A stretch of DNA of 64,000 bases from Thermomicrobiales bacterium (GTDB lineage: Bacteria; Chloroflexota; Chloroflexia; Thermomicrobiales; UBA6265), in NCBI GenBank assembly GCA_023957115.1, contig JAMLHN010000002.1:62001-126000 (forward strand), written 5' to 3'. This document shows positions 409-32,958 of the stretch, in pieces. Within the stretch, counting starts at the first letter, position 1. Each line of letters begins with the position of its first letter. A model generated the notes under the pieces. That model worked only from the letters and a program-made list of their open reading frames with translations. It was not told the origin of the DNA and searched no databases. The position numbers were made by a program, and so were the translations under genes.

Positions 409-1773
409 CTATTGCTGCAGACCAGCGGCCATAAGAATCTGGTCGACGAGGCTGTTTGCCTCGGAGAGCGCGTCTTCGGGCGAACTGTCGCCAGAGACGG
501 CCGCCGAAAGCGACGCTTCGATTGCATCGGCCATCTGCGGCCACTCGGGAATACGCGGCCGTCCCCAGCCCAGACCAAATGAGTCGAGCATGGCTGGATA
601 CTGTGGGAACTTGGCGACCATATCGGGATCGCTCAGCACCGACTCGCGGGCGGGAGGTTGCGCTTCGGCGAGTCGCGCTTCCATCTCCGGCGACGTCGCC
701 CAGAGCATGAATTCCCAAGCAGCATCCCGGTTCGGTGTGTCTGTCAGGATGCCGACATTCCAGCCCCCCAGCACGGGTGTCTGGAGGATCGCGCCATCGT
801 CCTGTGGTTGACCGGGCATCACAGCGACATCCCAGTCGTCGACGATCTTCGATCGCTCCGGATCGCCGTATGCTGGTATCGAGTCGTTCCACTGAATGAA
901 CATGGCCGCCTGGCCGCCGGAAAAGAAGGCATCACCTTCATCATAGTCCTGGGCAAGCGAGCCCGGGTTTGCCTGGCCAACCAGTGCAACCAGGGTTTCG
1001 AGCGCACTGACCGCAGCCGGTTCGGTCAGGGTCGATTTGAAGTTCTCATCGTAGAAGCGGCCGCCATAGGAGCCGAGCAGATTGGCATAGGTACACCCGA
1101 GCTGAACACCGCGTTTGGCCATCAGGGTGATGCCGTAAACATCGTTGCCCTGTTCACCGGCGGTGATTGCGGTTGCGGCGGCCAGCACATCGTCCCATGT
1201 TTGCGGGACTTCGAGGTTGTATTTCTCGAGCAGTGACGGTCGGTAGTAGAACATCATGACCGACGTATCGAACGGTAGACCATAGAGCTCGCCATCCCAT
1301 TCGGAAAGCTCGCTGACCAGTGCGGGCAGAAAATCGGGAAGATTCAATACCTCTGGATCGGTAGCGTCGACCAGATCCTGTACCGATCCGATCCAGCCGT
1401 TTCCGGCGTACTGTCCCATCCAGACCCCATCGACATGCACGATGTCATAGGTGTCACCGCCCTGGGTGAGTGCGGTGAGCTGTTTTTCCTGCAGGGTTGG
1501 ATAGGCCAGATCGTCGAATTCGACCTCGATCCCGGTCAGGTCAGTGAATTCACCGAGCAGGCTCTTGAGCATAACCGGCTTCGGCTCGGCCACCATGGCG
1601 ACCCGGAGCTTGGCGCCGGCGAACGGCTTGCCCTCTGCCGGGAACGTCGACTGGGCAAGCACCGAAGGGTGAACGGATGCCCCGCGGGCCAATGCGGCTG
1701 CTGCGATACCTGCGCTGGTTCCCTTTATTAGCGTGCGGCGATCGAAACGCGAGAATTGTGGACGGTTCTTCAT
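409..1773 (-). CDS. Extracellular solute-binding protein, family 1 (sugar ABC importer)
   Basis: A 454-residue secreted protein that would capture a sugar outside the membrane and deliver it to the adjacent permease. The N-terminus carries a Tat-like signal (DRRTLIKG followed by an Ala-rich hydrophobic segment). The mature part has family-1 hallmarks: a TGIEVEFDDLAYPTLQEK region, a DIVHVDGVWMGQYA segment, and a C-terminal NRDAAWEFMLWATSPE motif typical of MalE/UgpB-type proteins. A Shine-Dalgarno GAGAGGA precedes the ATG at 1773. It lies between the isomerase and the permease on the same strand, so it belongs to the GntR-headed operon. Ligand unknown; the enzymes nearby suggest a sugar or amino sugar. 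Confidence 0.9.
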   Translation of the reverse strand: MKNRPQFSRFDRRTLIKGTSAGIAAAALARGASVHPSVLAQSTFPAEGKPFAGAKLRVAMVAEPKPVMLKSLLGEFTDLTGIEVEFDDLAYPTLQEKQLTALTQGGDTYDIVHVDGVWMGQYAGNGWIGSVQDLVDATDPEVLNLPDFLPALVSELSEWDGELYGLPFDTSVMMFYYRPSLLEKYNLEVPQTWDDVLAAATAITAGEQGNDVYGITLMAKRGVQLGCTYANLLGSYGGRFYDENFKSTLTEPAAVSALETLVALVGQANPGSLAQDYDEGDAFFSGGQAAMFIQWNDSIPAYGDPERSKIVDDWDVAVMPGQPQDDGAILQTPVLGGWNVGILTDTPNRDAAWEFMLWATSPEMEARLAEAQPPARESVLSDPDMVAKFPQYPAMLDSFGLGWGRPRIPEWPQMADAIEASLSAAVSGDSSPEDALSEANSLVDQILMAAGLQQ

Positions 1774-1871
1774 CGATGTCCTCTCTTGCCAAAAGCGATG
1801 TCGTCGGTCGATCTGTTGTCGTCATTCCGGCCGGCCCTGGCCGGTTCGATCGGTTCCTCCTTCCGGTTCGC

Positions 1872-2810
1872 TCAGCTCGACAGTAATCGCGTCATTTCAG
1901 TGCGGGTGTCGCGCAGAAGACGTTCCGCGTTTTCGGGGAGCGCATAGGGGCCGAGGACGCTGAGCTCAGCCGAGATCCACCCCCGATAGCCATTGGCGAC
2001 GACCAGATTCATCATTGCCTGCAAGTCGATGACACCCTCTCCTGGAGCAAGGTGCGCATCGGTTTCCAGATTGTTGTCATCGAAATGGACATGCGCGATG
2101 CGGTCGCCAAAGGTCTCCAGATGGGCGCCGAGATAGGCGACTGGGTCGATGCCTTCTCGATGCGCGGTGACAGCGACATGTCCAAAATCGACCATCATCT
2201 GCAGATTGGGCGACGTGATCTGATCGAACACGATCTTTGCCTCTTCGAGTGTGGCGATGCCGTTGCTATCGTGGTAGACAAGCGGCTCGAAGAGGATGTC
2301 GACTCCGTGGGCAGTGGCGATCTCGACGAAGTGGCCGATGACCTCGACGGACGCTTCGAGGATCTCCTTGCGGGTCGTACGCCGGTAGTCGCCGTTTTCG
2401 GCCACCCAGAGCCACATCGGGACGATCAGCGCCATGCGCTTGCAACCGAGCTCAGATGCAACCTCGATGCAGAGCTCCAGATTGCGGAGGCTCCGTTGAC
2501 GCAGCGCCGGACCATCGAAGGGTGGGGCCTGATCGACCAGGGTATTGATGGGATAGAGAAGCTGCTCGGGCGTGTATCCGGCGATCTCCAGCCCGGCTTC
2601 GTCGCACATCGTCCGGATTGCGCGTACGCGGGTTGTATCGAGCTTTCCGTGGGAATCGACCATATCCCAGACATAGCCATGGTATTGGCCGCCCCAGAGC
2701 TCGACTCCGTCGTAACCAGCCTCTTTGATCAACCGCAGTGCGAGGTCGAGCGGGTAATAGCGCAGGAGCCCCGAGACGATTCCCAACTTGAAACGCTCTT
2801 GGTTCGACAT
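1872..2810 (-). CDS. Sugar phosphate isomerase/epimerase (AP-endonuclease-2 TIM barrel)
   Basis: A 312-residue protein of the xylose-isomerase-like TIM-barrel superfamily. Visible signatures are the N-terminal KEAGYDGVELWG strand, the central FEPLVYHDSNGIA segment with a likely metal-binding glutamate, MMVDFGHVAVTAHREG, HVHFDDNNLETDAHLAPGEG and the C-terminal GYRGWISAELSV; the Glu, Asp, His, Glu set fits a divalent-metal site. Start ATG at 2810 has AAAGGGGAA upstream. It is between a SIS-domain gene and a sugar-binding protein gene, so a role in converting the imported sugar is likely. The exact reaction (epimerase, isomerase or dehydratase) cannot be told from sequence. Confidence 0.85.
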   Translation of the reverse strand: MSNQERFKLGIVSGLLRYYPLDLALRLIKEAGYDGVELWGGQYHGYVWDMVDSHGKLDTTRVRAIRTMCDEAGLEIAGYTPEQLLYPINTLVDQAPPFDGPALRQRSLRNLELCIEVASELGCKRMALIVPMWLWVAENGDYRRTTRKEILEASVEVIGHFVEIATAHGVDILFEPLVYHDSNGIATLEEAKIVFDQITSPNLQMMVDFGHVAVTAHREGIDPVAYLGAHLETFGDRIAHVHFDDNNLETDAHLAPGEGVIDLQAMMNLVVANGYRGWISAELSVLGPYALPENAERLLRDTRTEMTRLLSS

Positions 2811-2843
2811 GACAAATGTTCCCCTTTGGGTGAACGCAACCGT

Positions 2844-3905
2844 CTAGGCGTATTCACCCCAGCGGGCGCCGATCTTGCCCATATAGCGGCGCTCGTCGAC
2901 ATCGTGGTTCTTCTGCGCTGCCATATGCATCACCCACCATTCAGTTGGGACGAAGAGTGCGAAGGGGGCAAAGAGCTCACCGAAATCGGGGTAGTCCTTC
3001 GCATCGAAGACCAGTTGGCGGGCGCCCTTCTTGGTGCAGAAATCGATTGCCTGCTGACTCACGGTGCGTGAAGCGTCGGTGCCGACGAGATGGAGAAAGG
3101 CGCGGCTGTTATCGAGTTTGGGATCGCCCGCGATGATCTCGATCGGTCCGTGATAGAACTCCCCGCTATCGACCGGGGCCGAGTCGAGCCAGAGGTTTTC
3201 GATAACCACACTCAGGGCGAGCTTGTACGCGAGGCCATAGTTGGGGCCTGTTCCGAGCACATAGAACATCCCGACATCCGGCACCTCGGCGGCCAGCTTT
3301 TGGGCGAGAGTGTTCGAAGGCTCGTTCAGCTTCGCGACGGCATCCGGCAGCTTGGCGATCCCGTCGAGGATCTGATTGCCGGGAGCCTTGGCTCCTTGCG
3401 CGAGGAGCACCTGACCGGCTACCTGATAGACGAGCGCCAGGGGAACGGTGAATACCGCCTTGTTGCGATAGTCGAGCACCCAGTCGGCACTTTTTGCCAG
3501 TGGTGTCTGATCGGTTTCGGTGATGGCGATGACCTTGGCGCCAGCGGCCTTGGCCATCTGCTGGGCTTCGAGAATTTCAGGTGTCTGGCCCGAATACGAG
3601 GTCAGGAAGAGAAAGCTGTTCTCATCGAGTGAGACCGGATTGCGGCTGACGAATTGCCAGCCAGTCTGAACGTCACTTGGTACATCACTGAAACGGTCGA
3701 GTAGGTACTTGAGACCATGCATGGCGGCATTGGAGGCGCCGCCGCCAAGCGCATAGACCCGCGGACGCGTGCTTCCAGCGATTGCCTTGCCAATCTCCTG
3801 CAAGGTTGACCCAAGCCGGGTCCGCGTCTCTTCGATTCCGTCCGCTGTCACCAGCGATGTGAAATAGAGGGCGTTGGTGTCCACTGCGTGTGTTTCAGTG
3901 CTCAC
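2844..3905 (-). CDS. SIS-domain sugar isomerase/deglycase (GlmS/FrlB/AgaS-like)
   Basis: A 353-residue cytoplasmic protein with two sugar-isomerase (SIS) domains. The first shows YALGGGASNAAMHGLKYLL and FLFLTSYSGQTPEI, the serine-rich phosphosugar loop; the second covers about residues 200-330 with VDSGEFYHGPIEII, as in GlmS, AgaS and fructoselysine-6-phosphate deglycase. There is no glutaminase domain, so it is not GlmS itself. It starts with GTG (3905), downstream of the GntR regulator, and is followed by the TIM-barrel isomerase. An amino-sugar or fructosamine phosphate substrate is the most likely reading. Confidence 0.85.
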   Translation of the reverse strand: MSTETHAVDTNALYFTSLVTADGIEETRTRLGSTLQEIGKAIAGSTRPRVYALGGGASNAAMHGLKYLLDRFSDVPSDVQTGWQFVSRNPVSLDENSFLFLTSYSGQTPEILEAQQMAKAAGAKVIAITETDQTPLAKSADWVLDYRNKAVFTVPLALVYQVAGQVLLAQGAKAPGNQILDGIAKLPDAVAKLNEPSNTLAQKLAAEVPDVGMFYVLGTGPNYGLAYKLALSVVIENLWLDSAPVDSGEFYHGPIEIIAGDPKLDNSRAFLHLVGTDASRTVSQQAIDFCTKKGARQLVFDAKDYPDFGELFAPFALFVPTEWWVMHMAAQKNHDVDERRYMGKIGARWGEYA

Positions 3906-3962
3906 AGTCGGTTGTGATCCTTCCTTTTCGATTCGACACGACCGCGCTCGGCCGCCTGCGGC

Positions 3963-4706
3963 TTATCGGCTGAAAAGCTCGACTCGGTGGGTGTAGCTGT
4001 CCGGGCGATAGATATCGAGCTCACAGAGCACCGGGCGATCGGTGGCGCGATCGAAGACCACGCGTTCGATCATTTGCACCAGTGCGTTCTCCTCGAGATC
4101 CAGGTGCGCGGCATGTTGCGCCGAAATCTGCCCGGGCGTGAACGTCTCGATGGCTCGGTAGAACTCGATACCGGTCGATTCGAGCATGCGATAGAGCGAG
4201 CCTCGGCTGAGTGCTTCGGACGTGAAGGCATCAGGCGTTCCCCGACTCACGATCCAGGGTGGAACATGCGAGCGGTGCACCCCGACCGGAGCGTCATCCG
4301 CCAGAAGGACGCGTTCCACCACGAATGCATGCGGGGTCGCAAGCTGCAGTGCGTGCTGCACCTCGGGAGTGACTTCGCGGATTCCGACGTCCAGCAGGCG
4401 ATAACCGGCGGTTCGCCCCGAAGCGGCTGCGTCTTCACTGAAGCTGGAAAGACGGGGAAGTCCCTCGATCTGCTTCGGTCGCTCTGCGACGAAGGTTCCC
4501 TTGCCGGGAACGCGTGTCACCAATCCTTCGCGTTCGAGCTCCCCGAGCGCCTGACGAATCGTGATCCGGCTGATGCCGAATGTCTCACCGAGTTGAGCTT
4601 CCGACGGAAGACGTTGGCTCGGCGCGAACTCTCCAGAGAGCACCTGCGATCGCAAGTGATCGGAGAGCTGGCGATAGAGCGGAATGGTGGAATCGATGTC
4701 GACCAC
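3963..4706 (-). CDS. GntR-family regulator (HutC/UTRA type)
   Basis: A 247-residue transcription factor. Residues 1-75 form the GntR winged helix (PLYRQLSDHLRSQVLSGEF, then LGETFGISRITIRQALGELE), and the rest is a UTRA effector domain ending in LCELDIYRPDSYTHRVELF. GTG start at 4706. It is the first gene of the sugar operon on this strand and probably represses it until a phosphosugar binds. An AT-rich dyad immediately upstream is a likely binding site. Confidence 0.9.
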   Translation of the reverse strand: MVDIDSTIPLYRQLSDHLRSQVLSGEFAPSQRLPSEAQLGETFGISRITIRQALGELEREGLVTRVPGKGTFVAERPKQIEGLPRLSSFSEDAAASGRTAGYRLLDVGIREVTPEVQHALQLATPHAFVVERVLLADDAPVGVHRSHVPPWIVSRGTPDAFTSEALSRGSLYRMLESTGIEFYRAIETFTPGQISAQHAAHLDLEENALVQMIERVVFDRATDRPVLCELDIYRPDSYTHRVELFSR

Positions 4707-4760: not shown

Positions 4761-4848
4761 ACAGATGGCAACCCCTCTGGAGTAAAAGCTCTCTGCGACA
4801 TGTCCTATTGACGATGGAGTGCTGGTCCGATACGCTTACGGGAAATAA

Positions 4849-4988
4849 GCCTTCGGGGTTAGGGTGAGGCCGCGTGCTATGTCGGCCAAGTCCCGACCGG
4901 CGGTGAAAGCCCGCGAGCGGCTGGTCGTACCAGTTGCACGATCCGGTGAAATTCCGGAGCCGACGGTAGAGTCCGGATGGGAGAAGGC
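4849..4988 (+). promoter_or_regulatory. FMN riboswitch (RFN element)
   Basis: Conserved RFN blocks occur in order: CTTCGGGG, then GGGTGA, CCGACCGGCGGT, AGCCCGCGAGC, GATCCGGTGAAATTCCGG, AGCCGACGGTAGAGT, CCGGATGGGAGAAGG. The terminal GCCTTC and GAAGGC can pair as P1. A rho-independent terminator lies about 60 bp downstream, so FMN binding would cut transcription of the following genes. RFN elements control riboflavin synthesis or uptake genes; here no rib gene follows but an ABC importer does. Confidence 0.95.
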
Positions 4989-5047
4989 GCAGAAGCGATC
5001 CGGCATTCGATGCTGGCTCGGCTTTGCGAATCCCTTGAAATCGTTCG

Positions 5048-5081
5048 ACGCCCGGTGGTCACCAGACACGGGCGTTTTTTT
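5048..5081 (+). terminator. Rho-independent terminator of the FMN riboswitch
   Basis: The stem ACGCCCG / CGGGCGT (5048-5054 with 5069-5075) is followed by a run of seven T. It sits between the RFN aptamer and the first downstream gene, the expected place for the riboswitch expression platform. Confidence 0.88.
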
Positions 5082-5189
5082 GTTGTCCGCAGATGGTCGA
5101 CCGCCACGCGTGGAGCGATTCCGAAGGCATCGTCCGATGCTGACGCCAGGAGCGCATGAGCTCCGGCGATTGACGGAATCGTTCGAACG

Positions 5190-6128
5190 ATGGCACGCGC
5201 GCTCGCAACTCGATTGATCTATACGATGCTGGTGGTCTTGACGGCTATGAGTGTCGTTTTTCTGTTGCTGCACCTCTCCGGCGATCCGGCCGACGCGCTC
5301 ATTCCCCCTGGCAGCAACCCGGACGATGTCGCAGCCTTGCGAGCGAAATTCGGACTCGATAAATCCCTGCCCGAGCAGTATCTCGACTACATGCGGAACG
5401 CTGCCCGTGGCGATTTCGGGGATTCCTGGCGGAGCGGCCAACCCGCCATGCATTTGGTGCTGGAGCGACTCGGCGCCACGTTGCTTCTGGCGATGACCGC
5501 ATTCCTGATTGCGTTGGCCGTTGCCCTGCCACTTGGGGTCGTTGCCGGAACCGGACGGTATCGTCTGGCCGGTTGGCTCGCCAGTGGGGTCGGGGTGCTG
5601 GGACAGGCACTTCCGGCGTTCTGGTTGGGCACCGTTCTCATCCTGTTCTTCAGCGTTCGGCTCGGATGGATGCCGTCGTCGGGGAGAGAGGGATTCCGGT
5701 CGTTGCTGCTTCCGGCAGTTGCGCTCGCGGCGTTTCCGGCGGCCACATTGCTGCGACTCGTGCGCGTTTCGGTGGCGGACGTCATGGGAGCCGACTATAT
5801 CCGTACCGCCAATGCCAAGGGGCTCCCGGGCCGGCTGGTGCTTTGGCGGCATATCGCACGAAACGCCATGTTGCCGGCTATCGCCTATGCCGGGGTGGTC
5901 GGCGGATTTCTGGTTGCCGGGGCGGTTGTCGTCGAATCGGTGTTTGCCTGGCCAGGGATCGGGCAATTGGCGCTCCAATCGGTGGCAAGTCGCGATCTTC
6001 CGGTGATTCAAGCGTTCGTCGCTGTCGTGGCGGTTCTGATCGTCCTGGCCAATCTCCTCTCTGAGCTCGTTGCCCTGTTGGCCGATCCGCGTTTGCGGGA
6101 AGCCTCGGCATCCGGTGCGGTGCGATGA
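5190..6128 (+). CDS. ABC transporter permease, peptide/nickel (DppB) type, FMN-riboswitch controlled
   Basis: A 312-residue membrane protein with six predicted segments and the DppB-type layout: an N-terminal TM, the periplasmic LHLSGDPADALIPPGSNP and LRAKFGLDKSLPEQYLDYM signatures, and the EAA loop TANAKGLPGRLVLWRHIARN that contacts the ATPase. It overlaps the next permease by 4 bp (ATGA). It is the first gene after the FMN riboswitch and terminator, so its expression should fall when FMN is high. By family it moves peptides, nickel or glycosides; by regulation a flavin or flavin precursor is a reasonable inference. Confidence 0.88.
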   Translation: MARALATRLIYTMLVVLTAMSVVFLLLHLSGDPADALIPPGSNPDDVAALRAKFGLDKSLPEQYLDYMRNAARGDFGDSWRSGQPAMHLVLERLGATLLLAMTAFLIALAVALPLGVVAGTGRYRLAGWLASGVGVLGQALPAFWLGTVLILFFSVRLGWMPSSGREGFRSLLLPAVALAAFPAATLLRLVRVSVADVMGADYIRTANAKGLPGRLVLWRHIARNAMLPAIAYAGVVGGFLVAGAVVVESVFAWPGIGQLALQSVASRDLPVIQAFVAVVAVLIVLANLLSELVALLADPRLREASASGAVR

Positions 6129-7030
6129 TGGCGTCTCGCATGCTGACCATGCCCGGCGCGTTCAGGCAATCGGAGGCGTCGCAACGTGTTTCACGCGGAC
6201 GCTGGAACCCTCGCTCCGCGACCCCCGCTGCCTGGTTGGGAGTCGGTATCGTGATCGCGCTGGCATTGATCGCGGCGATCGGTCCGATGCTGACTGGCGA
6301 CCCCGATAAGCAAGTGCTCCGAGACCGGTTGCTGCCGCCGGTCTTTTTCGGTGGGACCTGGGACCATCCGCTGGGCACCGATCAGCTCGGTCGCGATTTG
6401 CTGGCGCGTGCGGTCGTTGGCTGCCGGCTCACTCTGCTCCTTTCGCTGGCTGTGACTGTTGCTTCGACGGTGATGGGGAGTCTGCTCGGTTTGATCGGCG
6501 GGTTGCGTCCCGGACGGATCGACGGCGCCCTCCGTTTTCTGGTCGACGTACAGATCGCGTTGCCGGTGATCGTGATTGCCATCGCCGCATCGGTCCTGTT
6601 CGCGCCCGGCTTCGTCCTGGTCTTCCTGGTTCTCTTGTCGACCGGCTGGATTTCCTATCAACGCGTCGTGCGATTGCAGACACGATCGCTGTCACAAGCG
6701 CAGTTCGTCGAGGCCAGTCGTTCCATCGGAGCGGGTGAAGGCTGGATCGTGCGACGGCATCTGCTCCCTAATCTGGCCGGAACGATTGCGGTGCTGGCCA
6801 CGCAGCAAATGGCCGCGGTGATCCTCTTCGAGGCGGCGCTCAGTTACCTCGGACTCGGGATGCCGGCTGATGCGATTACCTGGGGACGCATGGTGGCGGA
6901 TGGCCGGGAATCGATGCTGAACGCCTGGTGGGTGTCGGTCATCCCCGGTCTGTGCATCGCGTTGGCAGTTCTTGGCTTCAATCTGATCGGTGAATGGTTT
7001 GGAACGCGACGACCCGGAGTGGCGTCGTAG
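6125..7030 (+). CDS. ABC transporter permease, peptide/nickel (DppC) type
   Basis: The 301-residue partner permease. It has a long basic N-terminal tail, a first TM near residues 35-55, the DppC-type HPLGTDQLGRDLLARAVVG signature, several further TMs and the EAA loop ASRSIGAGEGWIVRRHLLPN. Start ATG at 6125 overlaps the upstream stop. It heterodimerises with the DppB-type subunit. No DppD/DppF ATPase gene follows, so the transporter must borrow ATPases from elsewhere in the genome. Confidence 0.88.
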   Translation: MMASRMLTMPGAFRQSEASQRVSRGRWNPRSATPAAWLGVGIVIALALIAAIGPMLTGDPDKQVLRDRLLPPVFFGGTWDHPLGTDQLGRDLLARAVVGCRLTLLLSLAVTVASTVMGSLLGLIGGLRPGRIDGALRFLVDVQIALPVIVIAIAASVLFAPGFVLVFLVLLSTGWISYQRVVRLQTRSLSQAQFVEASRSIGAGEGWIVRRHLLPNLAGTIAVLATQQMAAVILFEAALSYLGLGMPADAITWGRMVADGRESMLNAWWVSVIPGLCIALAVLGFNLIGEWFGTRRPGVAS

Positions 7031-7049
7031 AAAACGTGGAGGAACTCTC

Positions 7050-8624
7050 GTGCGCGAGCATCGAATTCGAACGATCGACGATTGGAATCTCACCCGGCGT
7101 GCGCTGCTTGCGTCGCTTGGCGTTGGACTGGGCACCGTCGCGCTTCCACATCCGCACGCCGGAGCGCAAAGTCCGGAAGCCACCGCCGGCGCGCGGGCCG
7201 AATCGCTGACGATCGACTTGAGCAGTGAGCCGGATACGCTCGATCCCGCCTTGACCTATACCCCCGCCGGCTGGTCGGTCGTCCATTCGGTCTACGACTC
7301 GTTGCTGCAATACGACAATGACGGCAATCTCGAGCTCCTGCTCGCCGAAAGCTGGGAATGGACCACTCCAACGACGATCCAGGTCAAGCTCCGGCCCGAC
7401 ATCACCTTCCACAATGGGGAGCCGCTGACCAGCAATGCCGTGCAGTTCTCGCTGGCGCATATCACGGCCGAAGAGACGGCCTCGCAGGTCTCCGCGAATT
7501 TCGCCGTCATCGAGTCGTTCAATGAGATCGACGATTTGACGTTCGAGCTGGTGCTTTCGCAACCGGCGCCCTGGCTCCCGGCCCAGGTGGCGGCATGGTT
7601 GGCCATTCTTCCCCCGGAGTACGCCACCAGCAACGATTTTGCCCGGAATCCGATTGGAACCGGACCGTACAAATTCGAGGAATGGCGATCGGGTGAATCG
7701 ATCGCGCTCTCGATCAATGACGACTACTTTGCGGGGAGCCCCAAGGGAGCGCAGATTGCCGATGCGGTCACCTACCGTTTCGTACCCGATGCGACCACCC
7801 GGGTGGCCGATCTGCTGTCGGGGAGTGCGCAGCTGGTGCAGGGGGTTCCCATCGATCAAACAGGATCGATCGAAGACGGTGGACAGATGGTGATTGCGCA
7901 ACCGGTTTCCGGTACCGCGTTCGTACGGGTCCCAAATACCGTCGAGCCGTTCATCGATCCGCAGGTTCGTATCGCGCTCAATATGGCGGTCGACGTCGAG
8001 GGTATCGTCGAAGCGTTGGATGGCGGGTATGGGACTCGGCAGGCGAATCTTTTCGTCCCGAGCAGCATTGGTTATGACCCCGATATCGCTCCCTATGCCT
8101 ACGATCCCGAGATGGCCAGGGAATTGCTCGAAAGCGCCGGATATGCCGATGGGTTGTCGTTGAAGATGGATGTTTCGGCGCTCGAACGGCTCGATATCGC
8201 GCAAGCCATTGCCGCGCAACTGGGAGAGGTGGGTGTCGATGTCGCTGTTACTCAGAAGGAGCCGGCGCTCTTCAATGCCCCCGACCAGTGGACTGGTGTG
8301 GCGGAGGATGCTGCCGAATTGCGCGTGATCACCTGGCGCCCGCTGTTCGATCCTTACACCCTTCTCAGCCTGATGTTCTCCAATACCGGATTCCTGTCCC
8401 GCTTCGACGATCCGACGATTCAGGGATTGATCGACGCGTTCTCCACCGAATCCGATCCGGAGAGCCGGTCCGCTATCGGGCGCGAGCTTGGCAAGGAGAT
8501 GCACGATAATCCTGCGGCAATCTATCTCTACGACCTGACTGCGATCTACGGTCTGGCCGCGGATGCCCCGCCGTGGTCTCCCCGGGCGGACGAGTACGTG
8601 ATTGCGACGTATCGTGGGGAGTGA
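7050..8624 (+). CDS. ABC transporter solute-binding protein, family 5
   Basis: A 524-residue secreted binding protein. The GTG at 7050 is chosen because GTGGAGGAAC lies just upstream and it gives a clean Tat-like signal (LTRRALLASLGVGLGTVA). Family-5 signatures are the SEPDTLDPALTYTPAG start, LAESWEWTTPTTIQVKLRPD with FHNGEPLTSNAV, and RNPIGTGPYKFEEW. A further in-frame GTG at 6990 would overlap the permease. It completes an importer with the two preceding permeases under the FMN riboswitch. Family-5 proteins bind peptides but also nickel, sugars and other small molecules, so the ligand is open. Confidence 0.9.
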   Translation: MREHRIRTIDDWNLTRRALLASLGVGLGTVALPHPHAGAQSPEATAGARAESLTIDLSSEPDTLDPALTYTPAGWSVVHSVYDSLLQYDNDGNLELLLAESWEWTTPTTIQVKLRPDITFHNGEPLTSNAVQFSLAHITAEETASQVSANFAVIESFNEIDDLTFELVLSQPAPWLPAQVAAWLAILPPEYATSNDFARNPIGTGPYKFEEWRSGESIALSINDDYFAGSPKGAQIADAVTYRFVPDATTRVADLLSGSAQLVQGVPIDQTGSIEDGGQMVIAQPVSGTAFVRVPNTVEPFIDPQVRIALNMAVDVEGIVEALDGGYGTRQANLFVPSSIGYDPDIAPYAYDPEMARELLESAGYADGLSLKMDVSALERLDIAQAIAAQLGEVGVDVAVTQKEPALFNAPDQWTGVAEDAAELRVITWRPLFDPYTLLSLMFSNTGFLSRFDDPTIQGLIDAFSTESDPESRSAIGRELGKEMHDNPAAIYLYDLTAIYGLAADAPPWSPRADEYVIATYRGE

Positions 8625-8736
8625 GGAGTTGGGATTTAGGAGCGCACTCCGTCATCGCAGCCGCGGCGTACCGCACCTTCATTTCGACCCGAGCGAAGCA
8701 GAGCGTAACCTGGGGCGAACACCAAAGGAGTCTTCG

Positions 8737-8756
8737 CCCAGCGTTTCAACGTTGGG
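8737..8756. repeat. Dispersed 20-bp imperfect palindrome, copy 1
   Basis: CCCAGCGTTTCAACGTTGGG in the 185-bp gap between the binding protein and the PPOX fusion. It is repeated at 42443-42462 (one arm variant) and 59594-59613, each within about 45 bp of wider similarity (a GTCTT-like segment before, a GCG-rich segment after). It looks like a REP-type intergenic element. Confidence 0.75.
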
Positions 8757-8809
8757 GACGCGGCCGAATTGAACAGAGGCTGAATAGAGTTGGAACGAGT
8801 AAAGCAAGA

Positions 8810-9877
8810 ATGACGAAAAGACCGCCGGCGCAGGACGAGCTGGACTATGTGCAATCGCATCGATCGGGTCATCTGGCGACCGTGACGTCAGGCGGACAAC
8901 CGTTGGTCGTGCCCTGCTGCTTTGCCATCGCTGAACGCGATGGGCGACCGACCGTCGTTTCGGTGCTGGACACCAAACCGAAATCGGTTGACGTAAAGCA
9001 GCTGGCGCGGGTCCGCAATATCGAGGCGAATCCGTGCGTCTGCCTGACGGTCGACGATTATTCTGAGTCTTGGGATCGGCTCCGATTCGTGCAGCTTCGC
9101 GGTTCGGCGACTGTACTCGAAGCCGGTTCGACGGCAACTGTCTACGCCATCGAGCGATTGCGAGAGAAGTACGCACAGTATCGGGATATGCCTTTGGAGC
9201 ATGCTCCCGTCATCGAGATCGGTGAGCTCTCGGCGTTTTCGTGGAGTGCTGCTGGGACGTTCGATGGACGCGCGGACGATCTCGATTCGGTCATCCGCGG
9301 ACGGCGTTCAGTACGGGCGTTTCTGTCCGACCCGGTACCGGGCGACGTCATTCGCCGCTCGATCGAAGCGGCCGGATGGGCGCCGTCTCCGCATGGGCGG
9401 CAGCCGTGGCGATTTGCGGTCGTCGAGGACGCCGATCGCCGGCGTGGGCTTGCCGATGCGATGGCCTCGACCTGGGACGAGCAGCTTCGGATGGACGGTC
9501 AGGAGGAGAAGATCATCCGGATTCGGCTGGAGAAGAGCAGACAGCGGCTGATCGAGGCGCCGGTTCTGGTGGTCCCATGTCTCTATCTGGCCGATCTCGA
9601 TGTCTATCCCGATCCTGACCGGCAAGAAGCCGAGCGGATCATGGCGATACAAAGCATCGGATCGGCCATCCAGAACTTCCTGCTGACGATCTACGCGTCA
9701 GGATTCGATGCGGGGTGGATGTGCGCGCCCTTGTTCTGCCCGGAGATCGTAGCGGGATACCTGGGACTCGCAGAGGGCTTGATTCCCCATGCGCTGTTGC
9801 CCGTTGGGCGCGTCGCAAAGGATCCGGTGCGCCGTCCTCGCTTGCCGGTCGACGATCTGATCGTGCAATGGCAATAG
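8810..9877 (+). CDS. PPOX-domain / FbiB-C-like nitroreductase fusion flavoenzyme
   Basis: A 355-residue two-domain protein. Residues 1-140 form a pyridoxamine-oxidase-like split barrel (HLATVTSGGQPLVVPCCFA, then FVQLRGSATVLE) of the Rv0121-type probable F420-dependent group. Residues about 152-350 form a nitroreductase domain (IRGRRSVRAFLSDPV, SIEAAGWAPSPHGRQPWRFA, YPDPDRQEAERIMAIQSIGSA, PVGRVAKDPVRRP) resembling the C-terminal domain of F420 biosynthesis protein FbiB, which reduces dehydro-F420 using FMN. ATG 8810 has only a weak ribosome site. It follows the riboswitch-controlled transporter after a 185-bp gap with a repeat, so co-transcription is possible but unproven. An FMN- or F420-dependent oxidoreductase is the safe call. 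Confidence 0.85.
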   Translation: MTKRPPAQDELDYVQSHRSGHLATVTSGGQPLVVPCCFAIAERDGRPTVVSVLDTKPKSVDVKQLARVRNIEANPCVCLTVDDYSESWDRLRFVQLRGSATVLEAGSTATVYAIERLREKYAQYRDMPLEHAPVIEIGELSAFSWSAAGTFDGRADDLDSVIRGRRSVRAFLSDPVPGDVIRRSIEAAGWAPSPHGRQPWRFAVVEDADRRRGLADAMASTWDEQLRMDGQEEKIIRIRLEKSRQRLIEAPVLVVPCLYLADLDVYPDPDRQEAERIMAIQSIGSAIQNFLLTIYASGFDAGWMCAPLFCPEIVAGYLGLAEGLIPHALLPVGRVAKDPVRRPRLPVDDLIVQWQ

Positions 9878-28249: not shown

Positions 28250-28410
28250 ATCGCCATCTGTTGGCGAGATCAACAATCGAGACCGTGCGATTCGGGGCAC
28301 TCGGCCACGAGCGCAGCAGGGGGAAGCCGGTGTGAGTCCGGCGCTGATCCGCAACTGTGACATTCGGCGAACACGCGGTCGAATGGAGCCAGATTACCTG
28401 CCCGATTTCG
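28250..28410 (+). promoter_or_regulatory. Cobalamin riboswitch
   Basis: The conserved core reads GGGGAAGCCGGTG, TGAGTCCGGCGCTG, ATCCGCAACTGTGA (about 28320-28362), followed by the B12-box-like AGCCAGATTACCTGCC (about 28388-28403). The ribosome site GAAGGAGAGG of the next gene is about 25 bp further on and no terminator is seen, which suggests translational control. Exact 5' limit is uncertain. B12 would reduce expression of the downstream uptake operon. Confidence 0.92.
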
Positions 28411-28445
28411 CTCCGGCGCCCTTCGTGAAGGAGAGGGAGGACGGA

Positions 28446-29507
28446 ATGCAGCACGCGCAATTGACGTTCCCAAACGTCGACGTTCCAGAAAATCCAACGA
28501 ATCATGCGAACAGGCAGCTCTTTGTGTCCCGGCAGGTTCGCCGGCTGACCGCGACCGGAATGCTCATCGTCGCGCTGGCGCTGAGTGCGTTCAGTGCGCC
28601 GGTTGCGGCGCAGGACCAGGTCGTCGCGGTCGAATCGGCGGTCCAATGGTTGCTCAAGCAGCAGATGGACGACGGCGGATTTGCCGGATTCTCGGGCGAG
28701 AGCGACCCCGGCGCGACGGCTGACGCCGTCCTGGCGCTGGCATCGGCCAACGCCGTCGGTATCGAGATCGATCTCGAGCTGGCGATGAAGTATCTCGAAG
28801 CGAACGCGCTGGTCTTCGCCCAGACGAACCCGGGTTCGGCGGCCAAGCTGTCGATGGCGGCGGTGGCCACCGGGTGGGACCCGCACAATATCGACAACAT
28901 CAATCCGATGTCGATCGTCGAGGTGGCTTCCGGTATGGGCATGATCGGGCAAGGTCCATTCGAGCATGCGCTCGGTCTGCAGGCGCTGGCGGCCACAGGA
29001 ACGGTCGTGCCGGAGGCCGCGATCGAAGCAGCGCGCGGCAGCCAGGCGGAAGATGGCTCCTGGGCGTGGGATGGTTCGCTCGAGCCTGGTGTCGGCGACA
29101 CTAATACCACCGCCATGATGGTCCAGGGATTGATCGCGGTTGGCGTGCGCGACGAAATGGTCGACCGCGCGATGGCGTATCTGACCGGCGCCGTGAACGA
29201 GGACGGTGGATATCCCTACCAGCCCGGCGCTGAGACCGATTCAAATTCGACCGCGATGGTCCTGCAGGCACTCATCGCCGCGGCCGATCCCACCCTGGAC
29301 GAGGCGCGCGATGCCGCGCTGGCGGCGCTGCTCGGCCTGCAGAACGAAAGCGGCGCGTTCGCCTATATGGCGTCGGTTCCCGACGACAATGCGTTCGCGA
29401 CCGTGCAGGCGATCTCGGCGGCCTCTGGTGTGGCCTTTCCGATTCCCGCCGTTATGACGGTGCTGGCGACCCCGCCTGCCGATCCGGAGGCGACTCCGGC
29501 GGGCTAG
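28446..29507 (+). CDS. Secreted alpha/alpha-toroid protein, intrinsic factor/transcobalamin N-domain-like
   Basis: A 353-residue secreted protein; ATG 28446 follows GAAGGAGAGGGAGGACG. A signal/anchor segment spans about residues 36-56 with AAQ cleavage-like end. The rest is a string of prenyltransferase/squalene-cyclase-type repeats: AVQWLLKQQMDDGGFAGF, AARGSQAEDGSWAWDG, AMAYLTGAVNEDGGYPY, LAALLGLQNESGAFAYM. Human intrinsic factor and transcobalamin have such an alpha6/alpha6 barrel as N-terminal domain. Position directly after a cobalamin riboswitch and before a DUF4430 protein makes cobalamin capture the best inference. Alternative: an unrelated toroid lectin or enzyme. Confidence 0.85.
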   Translation: MQHAQLTFPNVDVPENPTNHANRQLFVSRQVRRLTATGMLIVALALSAFSAPVAAQDQVVAVESAVQWLLKQQMDDGGFAGFSGESDPGATADAVLALASANAVGIEIDLELAMKYLEANALVFAQTNPGSAAKLSMAAVATGWDPHNIDNINPMSIVEVASGMGMIGQGPFEHALGLQALAATGTVVPEAAIEAARGSQAEDGSWAWDGSLEPGVGDTNTTAMMVQGLIAVGVRDEMVDRAMAYLTGAVNEDGGYPYQPGAETDSNSTAMVLQALIAAADPTLDEARDAALAALLGLQNESGAFAYMASVPDDNAFATVQAISAASGVAFPIPAVMTVLATPPADPEATPAG

Positions 29508-29528
29508 CCGTTGGGTCCGTAAGAGACC

Positions 29529-30263
29529 TTGGTCAAGAAATCCGAGCCGCGCTCGCCCTCGAGGCGGGCGTGGCCGAACCGTTTGTCGAGTCAACGATGC
29601 TATGGGGCCAGATTCTTCCTCCGGCTCCTCATTGTGTTGCTCCCGGTCATCGGATCGTTCCTCCCGATCGATCTCGTGGCCCAGGAGCCGGTCTCATACG
29701 CCGGAATCGTGATCCGGCCCGGCGACGGCACCATCACCTACGTCTACGTTCCGCTCGATGAACCGGTCTCCGGGATCGAGCTCTTGCGACGGTCAGGCGT
29801 CTCGCTGGTCACGATCGGGTTTGGGGCATTTGGCGAGGGCGTTTGTCAGATCCAGGAGACTGGTTGCGATGTCGGGACCTGCCGCAAGAACGTCTGTCAG
29901 ACCGGTGGTCGTGAATCTCCCTACTGGCGGTATTTCCAGGTGAACGAAACTGGCGCATGGGCGGCATCACCATTGGGCGCGAGCGGCTCCAGAGTCGAAC
30001 CGGGTGACATCGACGGATGGTCCTGGTCCCCGGATGAGCCGTTGTTACCCGAGATCGAGATCTCGGAGATCCCCATGCTTGCCCGTGCCGGCGATGAGCT
30101 CGATACCGCGCATGTTGCCCGGTACGATGCCAATGGAAGTCTGATTGGAGGGGCGCCCTCGGAGGGGGTAGAGCTCACATCGTATCTGGCCGTCACGGTG
30201 GTGTTGAGTGGAGTTGCCGTCTTGGCGCTGGTTTTGCGGTTTCGGCGGCAGGCGTCGATATGA
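29529..30263 (+). CDS. Membrane-anchored DUF4430-type protein, transcobalamin C-domain-like
   Basis: A 244-residue protein with an N-terminal TM/signal (about residues 30-51), an extracellular domain and a C-terminal TM (about 220-238) with a basic tail. The domain has a four-cysteine stretch (GVCQIQETGCDVGTC and KNVCQ), then YWRYFQVNETGAWAASPLGA and RVEPGDIDGWSW, matching the W-x-Y / G-A-S / G-D-x-x-x-W pattern of DUF4430 and of the beta domain of intrinsic factor. TTG start at 29529 is tentative. With the preceding toroid protein it would form a two-piece cobalamin binder. Its stop overlaps the ecfT start by 4 bp. Confidence 0.8.
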   Translation: MVKKSEPRSPSRRAWPNRLSSQRCYGARFFLRLLIVLLPVIGSFLPIDLVAQEPVSYAGIVIRPGDGTITYVYVPLDEPVSGIELLRRSGVSLVTIGFGAFGEGVCQIQETGCDVGTCRKNVCQTGGRESPYWRYFQVNETGAWAASPLGASGSRVEPGDIDGWSWSPDEPLLPEIEISEIPMLARAGDELDTAHVARYDANGSLIGGAPSEGVELTSYLAVTVVLSGVAVLALVLRFRRQASI

Positions 30264-31288
30264 GTTCTCAAGCGGGCATCGATCCTCGCGCCTGGCTTTG
30301 CTGGGCCGGCGCCGCGCTCCTGGTTCCCCTTATGGGGCGCAATCCGTTTGCCCTGGCGTCGGTCCTGCTGGCCGTGCTTGCGGTTCGGGAGGCGTTGCCG
30401 CCCGAGGCGCGGGCCGGGTGGAGCTGGGTGATCCGACTGGGTCTCGTCTTTGGCGCGATCTCGGTTCTCTTCAACCTGCTGACCGTACGGGCGGGGAATC
30501 GAGTGATCGTCTCGATTCCGGAATCGGTTCCCGTGCTGGGAGGCGATCTGACGGTCAACTCCGTTGTTTTCGGGCTGCTCGGCGGCCTCGCGGTGCTGAC
30601 CCTGGTCCTCATTGGAATCACCCTCTCCGCCGTGCTCGATTGGAGCGCGATGCTGCGATTGCTGCCGCAGTCGCTCACCGGCGCCGGCGTAGCCGGTTCG
30701 GTTGCGTTTTCGTTCTTTCCCCAGATGGTCGCGACCTATCGTGAAGTCGTCGATGCACAAGCCGTGCGGGGGGAGGAGCTGCGGGGACCGCGCGACTACC
30801 TGGGATTGGCTCCGTTGCTCCTCTCCGGGGGAATCGAGCGTGCGGTGACGATGTCCGAGCTGCTCGAATCCCGCGGTTTTGGCGGGGCTCCCCCGCGGAG
30901 GCGGTCTGCCTGGATCAAGCTTTGCCCGGCCTCCGGGCTTGCGGCGATCTGTGTTGCCGTCTATGGCTTCGCCGCAGGCGAGCTCGTGCAGGCGCTCGTG
31001 GCCGGCGCGGCCGGGATGGGATTGTTGGTCGTGACGGTGCTGGCGAGTCGCGGGTCGGATGTGCGCCGCACGCGGTACCGATCCCTGGTCTGGCAGCGGA
31101 CCGACTGGATCGTCCTACTCGGCGCATTGCTTGCGGTTGGAACGGTCATCCTCACTGGACGGGATGCGCTGCGATACGAACCGTATCCCGTCCTTGTCTG
31201 GCCGGACGCGAGTCTGCCATTGACGATCGGCCTGCTCTGTCTCCTGGGACCGGTTGTTGCCATCCTCTGGCGGGAGCGCGCCCGATGA
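30260..31288 (+). CDS. ecfT: ECF transporter transmembrane subunit EcfT
   Basis: A 342-residue membrane protein of the CbiQ/EcfT family. The coupling motifs are visible in the cytoplasmic loop: DAQAVRGEELRGPRDYLG and MSELLESRGFGGAPPRRR, the two Ala/Ser-Arg-Gly boxes that touch the ATPases. It is longer than usual (about 260 residues), with two or three additional C-terminal TM segments. It is coupled by ATGA overlaps to both neighbours. It would energise uptake of the vitamin recognised by an S component; none is encoded in this operon. Confidence 0.88.
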   Translation: MSSQAGIDPRAWLCWAGAALLVPLMGRNPFALASVLLAVLAVREALPPEARAGWSWVIRLGLVFGAISVLFNLLTVRAGNRVIVSIPESVPVLGGDLTVNSVVFGLLGGLAVLTLVLIGITLSAVLDWSAMLRLLPQSLTGAGVAGSVAFSFFPQMVATYREVVDAQAVRGEELRGPRDYLGLAPLLLSGGIERAVTMSELLESRGFGGAPPRRRSAWIKLCPASGLAAICVAVYGFAAGELVQALVAGAAGMGLLVVTVLASRGSDVRRTRYRSLVWQRTDWIVLLGALLAVGTVILTGRDALRYEPYPVLVWPDASLPLTIGLLCLLGPVVAILWRERAR

Positions 31289-32958
31289 CTGCCGGAGTGC
31301 CCGACATCCGATTCGAAGACGTGTCGTTTCGGTATCCAAATGCCGACCGTGCGGTGCTTCGCGAATTCGATTGGGAGATCGCCGAGTCGGAGCTGGTTGT
31401 TCTGGCCGGGGAATCGGGAAGCGGCAAATCGACCATTCTCCGGTGCCTGAATGGGCTCGTGCCCCATTTCTCCGGTGGGGAGTTTGGCGGTCGGGTGCTC
31501 GTTCGTGGCGAAGACACGCGATTCCTGCCGACGCGCGCATTGGCACGGTCAGTCGGGTTCGTGTTTCAGGATCCCGGCGCGCATTCCGTCTCCACCACGG
31601 TCGAGGATGAGATTGCCTTCGGCCTCGAACAGCTCGGGGTACCGGTACCGGCAATGCGCCGAAGGGTCGAAGAAGCGCTCGACCTGACCGGAACCGAACG
31701 ACTGCGCAAGCGCTCGCTCGATACGCTCTCCGGGGGAGAGCGGCAGCGGGTGGCGCTTGCGGCGGCGTTGGCATTGCAGCCCAGAATCCTGGCGCTCGAC
31801 GAACCGACCAGCCAGCTCGATCCGGCCGGCGCCGAAGATGTGCTCGACGCCGTGCGACGTCTGAACGAAGAGCTTGGCATCACTGTGATAATGGCGGAGC
31901 AGCGGTTGGAACGCGTGATCGGGATGACCGACCGGCTGCGTATCCTGCAACCGGGCTGGCACGACCTCGATGGCCATCCAGATGAGGTGCTGCGACGGTG
32001 CGACCCTCGTTTGGCGCCGCCGGTTGCCCTGCTCGGCCGCACCGCCTCGTGGTCTCCCTTGCCGCTGACCGTCAAGGACGCCCGGCAGATGGTGCGCAAG
32101 ACGGTATTCGAACCGGGGCCGGCGCCGGTCGATCCACCGCGGCCAGAGACCGAACCCGCGATCGTCGTCGATCGCTTGGCTGTTGGATATCAGCGCGAGC
32201 GGGTACTGGAATCCGCATCGTTCGATGTCCGGCCGGGTGAGCTGGTTGCCCTCATGGGACGGAACGGCACCGGGAAATCGACCCTGCTGCGTACGTTGAT
32301 GGGATTGCATGCTGTCGATTCCGGCCGGATCGCGATTGCAGGGCTCGATCCGTCGCATGACCGGACGCAGGCGATCGGCCGGCGGGTCGGATTCCTCCCG
32401 CAACGGGCATCCAGTCTTCTTTTTCACGAGACGATTGGCGATGACGTCCGCGCTGCGCTCGAAAGCCGGGGCGCTGCTGTGGAGGGGCTCGACGCCCTGT
32501 TGGACCGGTTTGCACTCGCGCATCTGAGCGATCGTTCCCCGCTCGATCTGAGCGCCGGCGAACAGGAACGTGCCGCGCTGGCAGTTGCGCTGGCCGGTCA
32601 TCCGCCGGTGCTCCTGCTCGATGAGCCGACGCGTGGTATGGATGCCATACGCAAAGCCGAGCTTGCCGAGCTCTTCGAAGAGCTGCGTGCGGCAGGAATC
32701 GCCATGCTGATGGCAACGCACGATGTGGAATTGGTGGCGCACGTTGCCACGCGGGTGATCCTGCTCGGCGATGGGGGGATCGTGGCGCAGGGTGGTACGC
32801 GAGAAGTGCTCGCCGGCTCGCTGAGTTTTGGCACGCAGATGAATCGGATCTTCGGCAATGGATGGCTGACGGTGGATGACGTCCTGCGTGACCGGTTGCC
32901 GGACTGGGACAATGCGGGGAGTGACGCGCGCTTGGTCGGATGGGGTCGAATCGAATGA
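31285..32958 (+). CDS. ecfA: ECF transporter ATPase, fused EcfA-EcfA' pair
   Basis: A 557-residue protein with two full ABC ATPase domains. Domain 1 (about residues 1-240): VVLAGESGSGKSTILRC, FVFQDPGAHS, LSGGERQRVALAAALAL and ILALDEPTSQLD. Domain 2 (about 290-530): ALMGRNGTGKSTLLRTL, FLPQRASSLLF, LSAGEQERAALAVALA and LLLDEPTRGMD. A short linker joins them. Such fusions replace the EcfA/EcfA' heterodimer. ATG 31285 overlaps the ecfT stop. It powers the ECF module and ends overlapping pdxH. Confidence 0.93.
   Translation: MTAGVPDIRFEDVSFRYPNADRAVLREFDWEIAESELVVLAGESGSGKSTILRCLNGLVPHFSGGEFGGRVLVRGEDTRFLPTRALARSVGFVFQDPGAHSVSTTVEDEIAFGLEQLGVPVPAMRRRVEEALDLTGTERLRKRSLDTLSGGERQRVALAAALALQPRILALDEPTSQLDPAGAEDVLDAVRRLNEELGITVIMAEQRLERVIGMTDRLRILQPGWHDLDGHPDEVLRRCDPRLAPPVALLGRTASWSPLPLTVKDARQMVRKTVFEPGPAPVDPPRPETEPAIVVDRLAVGYQRERVLESASFDVRPGELVALMGRNGTGKSTLLRTLMGLHAVDSGRIAIAGLDPSHDRTQAIGRRVGFLPQRASSLLFHETIGDDVRAALESRGAAVEGLDALLDRFALAHLSDRSPLDLSAGEQERAALAVALAGHPPVLLLDEPTRGMDAIRKAELAELFEELRAAGIAMLMATHDVELVAHVATRVILLGDGGIVAQGGTREVLAGSLSFGTQMNRIFGNGWLTVDDVLRDRLPDWDNAGSDARLVGWGRIE

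Follow-up and report, generated by a model that had tools for sequence, protein, structure and literature searches.

Nine families of bacterial riboflavin importers are counted in a 2026 review (PMC12855090) that cites a survey from 2015 (PMC4418817), and the Opp/Dpp type is absent among the importer families named in that survey. RibXY is a ThiXY-like importer without an ATPase gene (PMC3766115) whose transport of riboflavin has been shown (PMC4418817). The operon reported here resembles RibXY of Chloroflexi in several respects: an FMN riboswitch lies upstream, the permease and binding protein are encoded in one operon that usually has no ATPase gene, and both systems occur where riboflavin synthesis is missing, within the same bacterial order, with the same FbiE-like gene downstream of RibXY in genomes G005 and G006. 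They differ in that RibX and RibY are of the ThiX/ThiY (NMT1) type with one permease, whereas here a family-5 binding protein is paired with two permeases of the Opp/Dpp type.

RfuABCD consists of four genes, including one for an ATPase of its own, and has a binding protein of a different family. This system of Treponema and Spirochaeta compares with our candidate as a multi-component ABC riboflavin importer linked to an RFN element (in Spirochaeta, PMC4418817), and differs from it in that the operon described here has a binding protein of the family-5 type and no ATPase gene. Importers of the Opp/Dpp/Nik group share their permease families and their binding-protein family and fold with the operon, which is unlike them in having no ATPase genes, an FMN riboswitch, no aspartate to contact a peptide amine, and scores below the peptide and nickel equivalog cut-offs.

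A further comparison concerns coenzyme F420. Thermomicrobia carry CofC, CofD, CofE and a stand-alone FbiE, and the genomes considered here likewise have cofD-cofC-cofE and an FbiE-like reductase. They differ in that Fo synthase is absent family-wide and in that the reductase belongs to a transport operon under RFN control and, in the genome of the window, is fused to a PPOX domain. In Thermomicrobium roseum a stand-alone FbiE homologue reduces dehydro-F420 during F420 synthesis (Braga 2020, as reported in PMC8498797), and another paper states that F420 producers release Fo into culture supernatants (PMC11917521). None of the words “uptake”, “salvage” and “scavenge” is used in the F420 review PMC8498797. 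The literature searched gave no Opp/Dpp-type flavin importer, no Fo importer of any kind, and nothing that joins FMN riboswitches with Fo uptake.

Genomes Analyzed

The window is a stretch of 64,000 nucleotides (C12:62001-126000) of G000, a 4.26 Mb draft genome in 89 contigs that is 90.9% complete and that its relatives place among uncultured Thermomicrobiales (Chloroflexota). The comparison set comprised 61 genomes of the order, most of them drafts, of which 32 belong to the window's own family (hereafter the family).

The Operon and Its FMN Riboswitch

An earlier note on this DNA had described a full RFN element and terminator ahead of DppB/DppC-type permeases and a family-5 binding protein, and matches to RF00050, RNA folding and Pfam confirmed that arrangement, in which the expression platform precedes the regulated gene dppB and a reductase gene comes last (Table 1).

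Table 1. Features of the RFN-controlled operon, in window positions.
Feature	Position	Strand	Evidence
FMN riboswitch aptamer (RFN element)	4845..4992	+	RF00050, full length
Probable intrinsic terminator of the expression platform, GC-rich hairpin then U7	5047..5081	+	RNA fold
DppB/OppB-type ABC permease	5190..6128	+	PF00528 E 1.1e-31, PF19300
DppC/OppC-type ABC permease, 4-base overlap with dppB	6125..7030	+	PF00528 E 1e-20, PF12911
Family-5 (SBP_bac_5-type) solute-binding protein, twin-arginine signal TRRALLASLGVG	6990..8624	+	PF00496 E 5.4e-72
PPOX-class domain + FbiB-C-terminal-like (FbiE-like) nitroreductase fusion	8810..9877	+	ORF open from 8573

The aptamer scored 92.9 bits (gathering score 66.2; E 4.6e-20), with model positions 1-138 all covered, and it is the sole FMN riboswitch of the G000 draft. 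The downstream hairpin with its U7 tract folds at -16.6 kcal/mol (z -1.98; 8 of 200 shuffles were equally good) and is probably a terminator; of 19 dpp-type RFN leaders, 10 had a comparably spaced hairpin followed by at least U5.

When 34 RFN elements from the order were aligned, 60 columns were invariant. An altered FMN site in the riboswitch was rejected because no conserved core column varies, although there are differences in the L2 arm. That arm is longer, with an inserted hairpin, in the family's 19 dpp-type elements. AGUCC was observed in 17 of these 19, and AUUCC in nearly all rib- and RibXY-linked elements.

Conservation among Relatives

The order RFN-dppBC-SBP, which the earlier note proposed seeking in related genomes, is conserved across the family. 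The transporter was found in 28 of the 32 family genomes (a binding protein or fragment of one in 27, plus G034, where the contig ends in dppB), and wherever the contig reaches, in all of ~19 family genomes, the RFN element directly precedes dppB, followed by dppC and the binding protein. A chance neighborhood was ruled out, the gene order recurring in ~20 other genomes. Among the 61 genomes, close relatives of the binding protein (E ~1e-100 or better) occurred only in the window's family, and a pattern-based scan of 84,980 species genomes, a method that could miss distant relatives, matched solely Thermomicrobiales/Chloroflexota MAGs.

The claim that the operon lacks an ATPase gene also held, as the surroundings of the operon in the window and at 11 related loci contain no ORF for an ABC ATPase. 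G000 has ten OppDF-type ATPase pairs, most of which adjoin permeases and binding proteins. Two are orphan pairs with no such neighbors (C20 ~46.3-48.4 kb and C12 ~25.7-27.9 kb), so a shared ATPase for the importer is plausible, and these two pairs may be the ones that serve it.

The Permeases and the Binding Protein

Both permeases and the binding protein scored below every NCBIfam equivalog cut-off for peptide or nickel transport, the best scores being 276.9 against a cut-off of 350 for a permease and 160 against 600 for the binding protein. The nearest families by sequence are Opp2B/Opp2C (nickel) for the permeases and NikA/GsiB-like proteins for the binding protein. An AF2 model of the binding protein (pLDDT 88) has the family-5 fold and matched many family-5 structures, with DppA, GsiB and NikA as the nearest solved folds. 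No flavin complex was among the listed family-5 structures that matched the model, and it speaks against the importer reading that family-5 proteins bind many ligands, with a flavin in none of the solved set found.

DppA grips dipeptides via Arg383 and Asp436, the latter being the contact to the peptide amine. At the position of Asp436, all 26 RFN-linked binding proteins have proline (one has a gap), within the motif W-[R/S]-P-x-[F/Y/H]-[D/E]-P, and in these 26 proteins the Arg383 loop is shorter by six residues. Both DppA residues are named in the title of PDB entry 8z1z. In the same alignment just one of nine other family-5 paralogs has an aligned aspartate at this position, so its absence marks a protein as not DppA-like rather than as flavin-binding; it speaks against DppA-like peptide binding and not by itself for flavins.

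The RFN-linked binding proteins group in a single separate clade, within which the b copies of tandem pairs make up a subclade. Two tandem binding proteins are present in five family members (L114, L116, L121, L127, L128), the upstream copy having the WRP motif and the downstream copy WSP. That subclade of WSP downstream copies also includes the only binding protein of G060, in which both ribH and ribB were found. The tandem proteins may possibly represent a split between riboflavin and Fo. A clean split according to riboflavin-pathway status was rejected and stays a lead, as the b type alone is present in G060 whereas both types are present in G039 (ribB found, ribH not).

Riboflavin Synthesis and RibXY

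Loss of riboflavin synthesis is widespread in the family. Lumazine synthase (ribH) is missing in 27 of the 32 genomes and DHBP synthase (ribB) in 26, and riboflavin kinase (RibF) is kept in nearly all. G000 lacks ribH and ribB and has the kinase, and the loss extends to eight others with a completeness of 90% or more (G030, G033, G035, G038, G042, G051, G058, G059). Both genes were found in 14 of 14 control genomes. Draft gaps were ruled out as the cause of the missing ribH, ribB and Fo synthase (CofH) genes, which are also absent in G051 (30 contigs, 96%), G058 (98%) and G042 (98%). Where family members keep riboflavin genes, these form a separate second RFN operon; on small contigs they could partly be contamination. 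Riboflavin need alone does not explain the Dpp-type operon, because five or six family genomes that keep riboflavin synthesis (ribH and/or ribB) also have it.

In sister families (G001, G002, G005, G006, G008, G009, G017) the RFN element precedes RibX and RibY. These RFN-linked RibY proteins scored 414-597 bits with a RibY profile, and family members reached at most ~173 bits, with the exception of G053 at 315. The best match in G000, away from the operon, had 144 bits, by which a RibXY system besides the Dpp-type operon was ruled out there. The prediction that other riboflavin transporters would be absent was thus borne out for the RibXY type, RFN-linked RibXY being missing from the family with G053 as a partial exception. 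The operon's own transporter is likewise, as had been stated, unlike RibU, RibM, RibN, ImpX, RfnT, RibZ and RibV, its only Pfam domains being those of ABC permeases and family-5 proteins, and it is not of the RibXY type, its binding protein belonging to PF00496 and not to the NMT1/THI5-like proteins such as RibY. The two RFN transporter types never occur together in a genome of the order, and in G005 and G006 the FbiE-like gene that comes after the Dpp-type transporter genes also comes after RibXY. From this genomic pattern it looks like one flavin importer has been replaced by another in the same regulatory slot.

Two individual cases were noted. The 315-bit protein of G053, the family's only strong RibY-like one, is encoded on a 3.5 kb contig (G053:C6:1163-2215, L214) besides a dpp-type RFN operon. 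In G003, of the same order and 94% complete, no ribH, ribB, FMN riboswitch or RFN-type RibY was found.

F420 Genes without Fo Synthase

The fourth gene of the operon likely starts at the ATG at ~8810 rather than at 8573, and Pfam assigned it PPOX (PNPOx_N) and nitroreductase/FbiB-like domains. The reductase scored 122.5 bits with TIGR03668 (cut-off 119.15) and 144.7 bits with the FbiB C-terminal model TIGR03553 (cut-off 249.55). The FbiE-like gene is single copy per genome, sits in the RFN operon of this family and is the sole one in G000. It was not found in G035, G039 and G057-G060, and cofE was found in all six; these genomes may use 2-phospholactate instead of PEP, have lost a functional F420 pathway, or have the gene in an assembly gap.

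CofH was found in 0 of the 32 family genomes, in comparison to eleven sister-family genomes with matches of ~480-496 bits and a partial copy in G023. Every one of the 28 high-quality genomes retains the F420 ligase CofE. In eight relatives (G034, G035, G042, G044, G045, G046, G051, G054), contig permitting, cofD-cofC-cofE-fgd directly adjoins the RFN element on its upstream side and shares its strand, with the end of fgd ~100 bases before the element in G045 and G046. The upstream cofD, cofC and cofE score above their NCBIfam equivalog cut-offs. The fgd-like gene passes TIGR03557 and has a higher score, below cut-off, with an FMN-dependent LLM family. In G000 the cluster (C12:53480-57396) lies 9.4 kb upstream of the RFN element, outside the window, and the genes in between include sugar-metabolism genes. 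Those at window 409-4706 (-) encode a sugar ABC binding protein, a fructoselysine-type epimerase-like protein, a SIS-domain deglycase-like protein and a GntR regulator. They are an apparent insertion or rearrangement, cluster and operon being contiguous in the eight relatives.

Because cofD, cofC, cofE and the FbiE-like gene are kept and Fo synthase is absent, the family's cells appear, judging by gene content, capable of converting Fo to F420 yet incapable of Fo synthesis. Since the operon is tied to an F420 gene cluster without Fo synthase, Fo is a serious second candidate ligand.

To relate the operon to both pathways, 28 high-quality, mutually related genomes were compared by Fisher tests, with an RFN-linked transporter defined as either RibXY or the Dpp type. 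Such a transporter was present in 11 of 12 genomes without riboflavin genes and in 5 of 16 with them (p 0.002), in 16 of 20 without Fo synthase and 0 of 8 with it (p 0.0002), and, among genomes with riboflavin genes, in 5 of 8 without Fo synthase and 0 of 8 with it (p 0.026); kinship is ignored in all three p values, which overstate the evidence because the genomes are related. Fo need alone does not predict the operon, because an RFN transporter is missing from five genomes that carry riboflavin genes but no Fo synthase.

Proposed Function and Alternatives

The earlier reading of the operon as a candidate flavin uptake system is supported by the conserved gene order, the pathway loss and the absence of RibXY, which together make it a strong candidate on genomic grounds. 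We consider it likely that the operon imports riboflavin and/or a close deazaflavin under FMN control. Riboflavin is a probable ligand by this genomic evidence, and for Fo the same kind of evidence suggests a chance somewhat short of even. We infer the identity of the ligand, the direction of transport, the sharing of an ATPase and the OFF response to FMN. At low FMN, the RFN leader would let transcription pass the terminator, and the DppB/DppC-type permeases and a Tat-exported family-5 binding protein would be produced, the permeases sharing an OppD/OppF-type ATPase encoded elsewhere. Riboflavin would most likely be imported and converted by RibF to FMN and FAD. Fo, the deazaflavin precursor of F420, would quite possibly be taken in by the same system, because Fo synthase is absent while cofD, cofC, cofE and the operon's FbiE-like reductase are kept.

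We tentatively hypothesize, further, that the operon is a first Fo uptake system: F420 would be made by salvage with Fo as a family-wide vitamin, one importer would supply FMN/FAD as well as F420, and tandem binding proteins, where present, would split riboflavin and Fo between them. If flavin import is true, an Opp/Dpp-type member joins the bacterial riboflavin importers and family-5 binding proteins gain a flavin ligand. If Fo is taken up, this would explain late F420 genes in bacteria without Fo synthase and make F420 a shared community cofactor, and the system would be the first of its kind found in the literature searched.

That the operon imports riboflavin only, with the F420 genes adjoining because FbiE is an FMN enzyme or because of an old gene order, and with Fo arriving by another route or no F420 being made, is somewhat less likely than not. 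It agrees with a riboswitch class that senses FMN, with the operon taking the place of RibXY, a proven riboflavin transporter (PMC4418817), and with most members lacking ribH and ribB. It accounts less well for the operon being kept in six family genomes with ribH and/or ribB, for the reductase in it being the sole FbiE-like copy, and for the retention of cofE in near-complete genomes when Fo synthase is missing from the whole family.

A dedicated Fo (deazaflavin) importer, with riboflavin entering via another transporter and FMN as a mere proxy signal, is unlikely. The contiguous cofD-cofC-cofE-fgd of the eight relatives, the family-wide lack of Fo synthase and the distribution of RFN transporters among riboflavin-making high-quality genomes (5/8 vs 0/8) all argue for it, but FMN control would be odd regulation for Fo uptake, and most members need riboflavin too, with no other FMN riboswitch in G000.

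We regard import of another flavin-related compound (F420 itself, F420-0, FMN, lumichrome or a flavin breakdown product) as very unlikely. The same genomic evidence (sole FMN riboswitch, conserved order, F420 clustering) would fit it, and family-5 ligands vary in size, but imported finished F420 would make CofD, CofC and CofE needless, and the retention of RibF in nearly all genomes points to riboflavin as the substrate.

A peptide, glutathione or nickel-chelate importer that is under FMN control for other reasons is the least probable of all, its likeness to Opp2B/Opp2C, NikA and GsiB in sequence and to DppA, GsiB and NikA in fold being outweighed by the FMN control and riboflavin-synthesis loss that it leaves unexplained, by the altered Arg383 loop, and by the sub-cut-off equivalog scores and absent DppA aspartate, on which an ordinary peptide or nickel importer was ruled out.

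Another Riboswitch in the Window

Elsewhere in the window, at 28276-32958, a cobalamin riboswitch (39.9 bits) was observed ahead of genes whose products, judged by eye, resemble transcobalamin, a membrane protein of the ECF T type and a double ECF ATPase. This region is probably a B12 uptake system.
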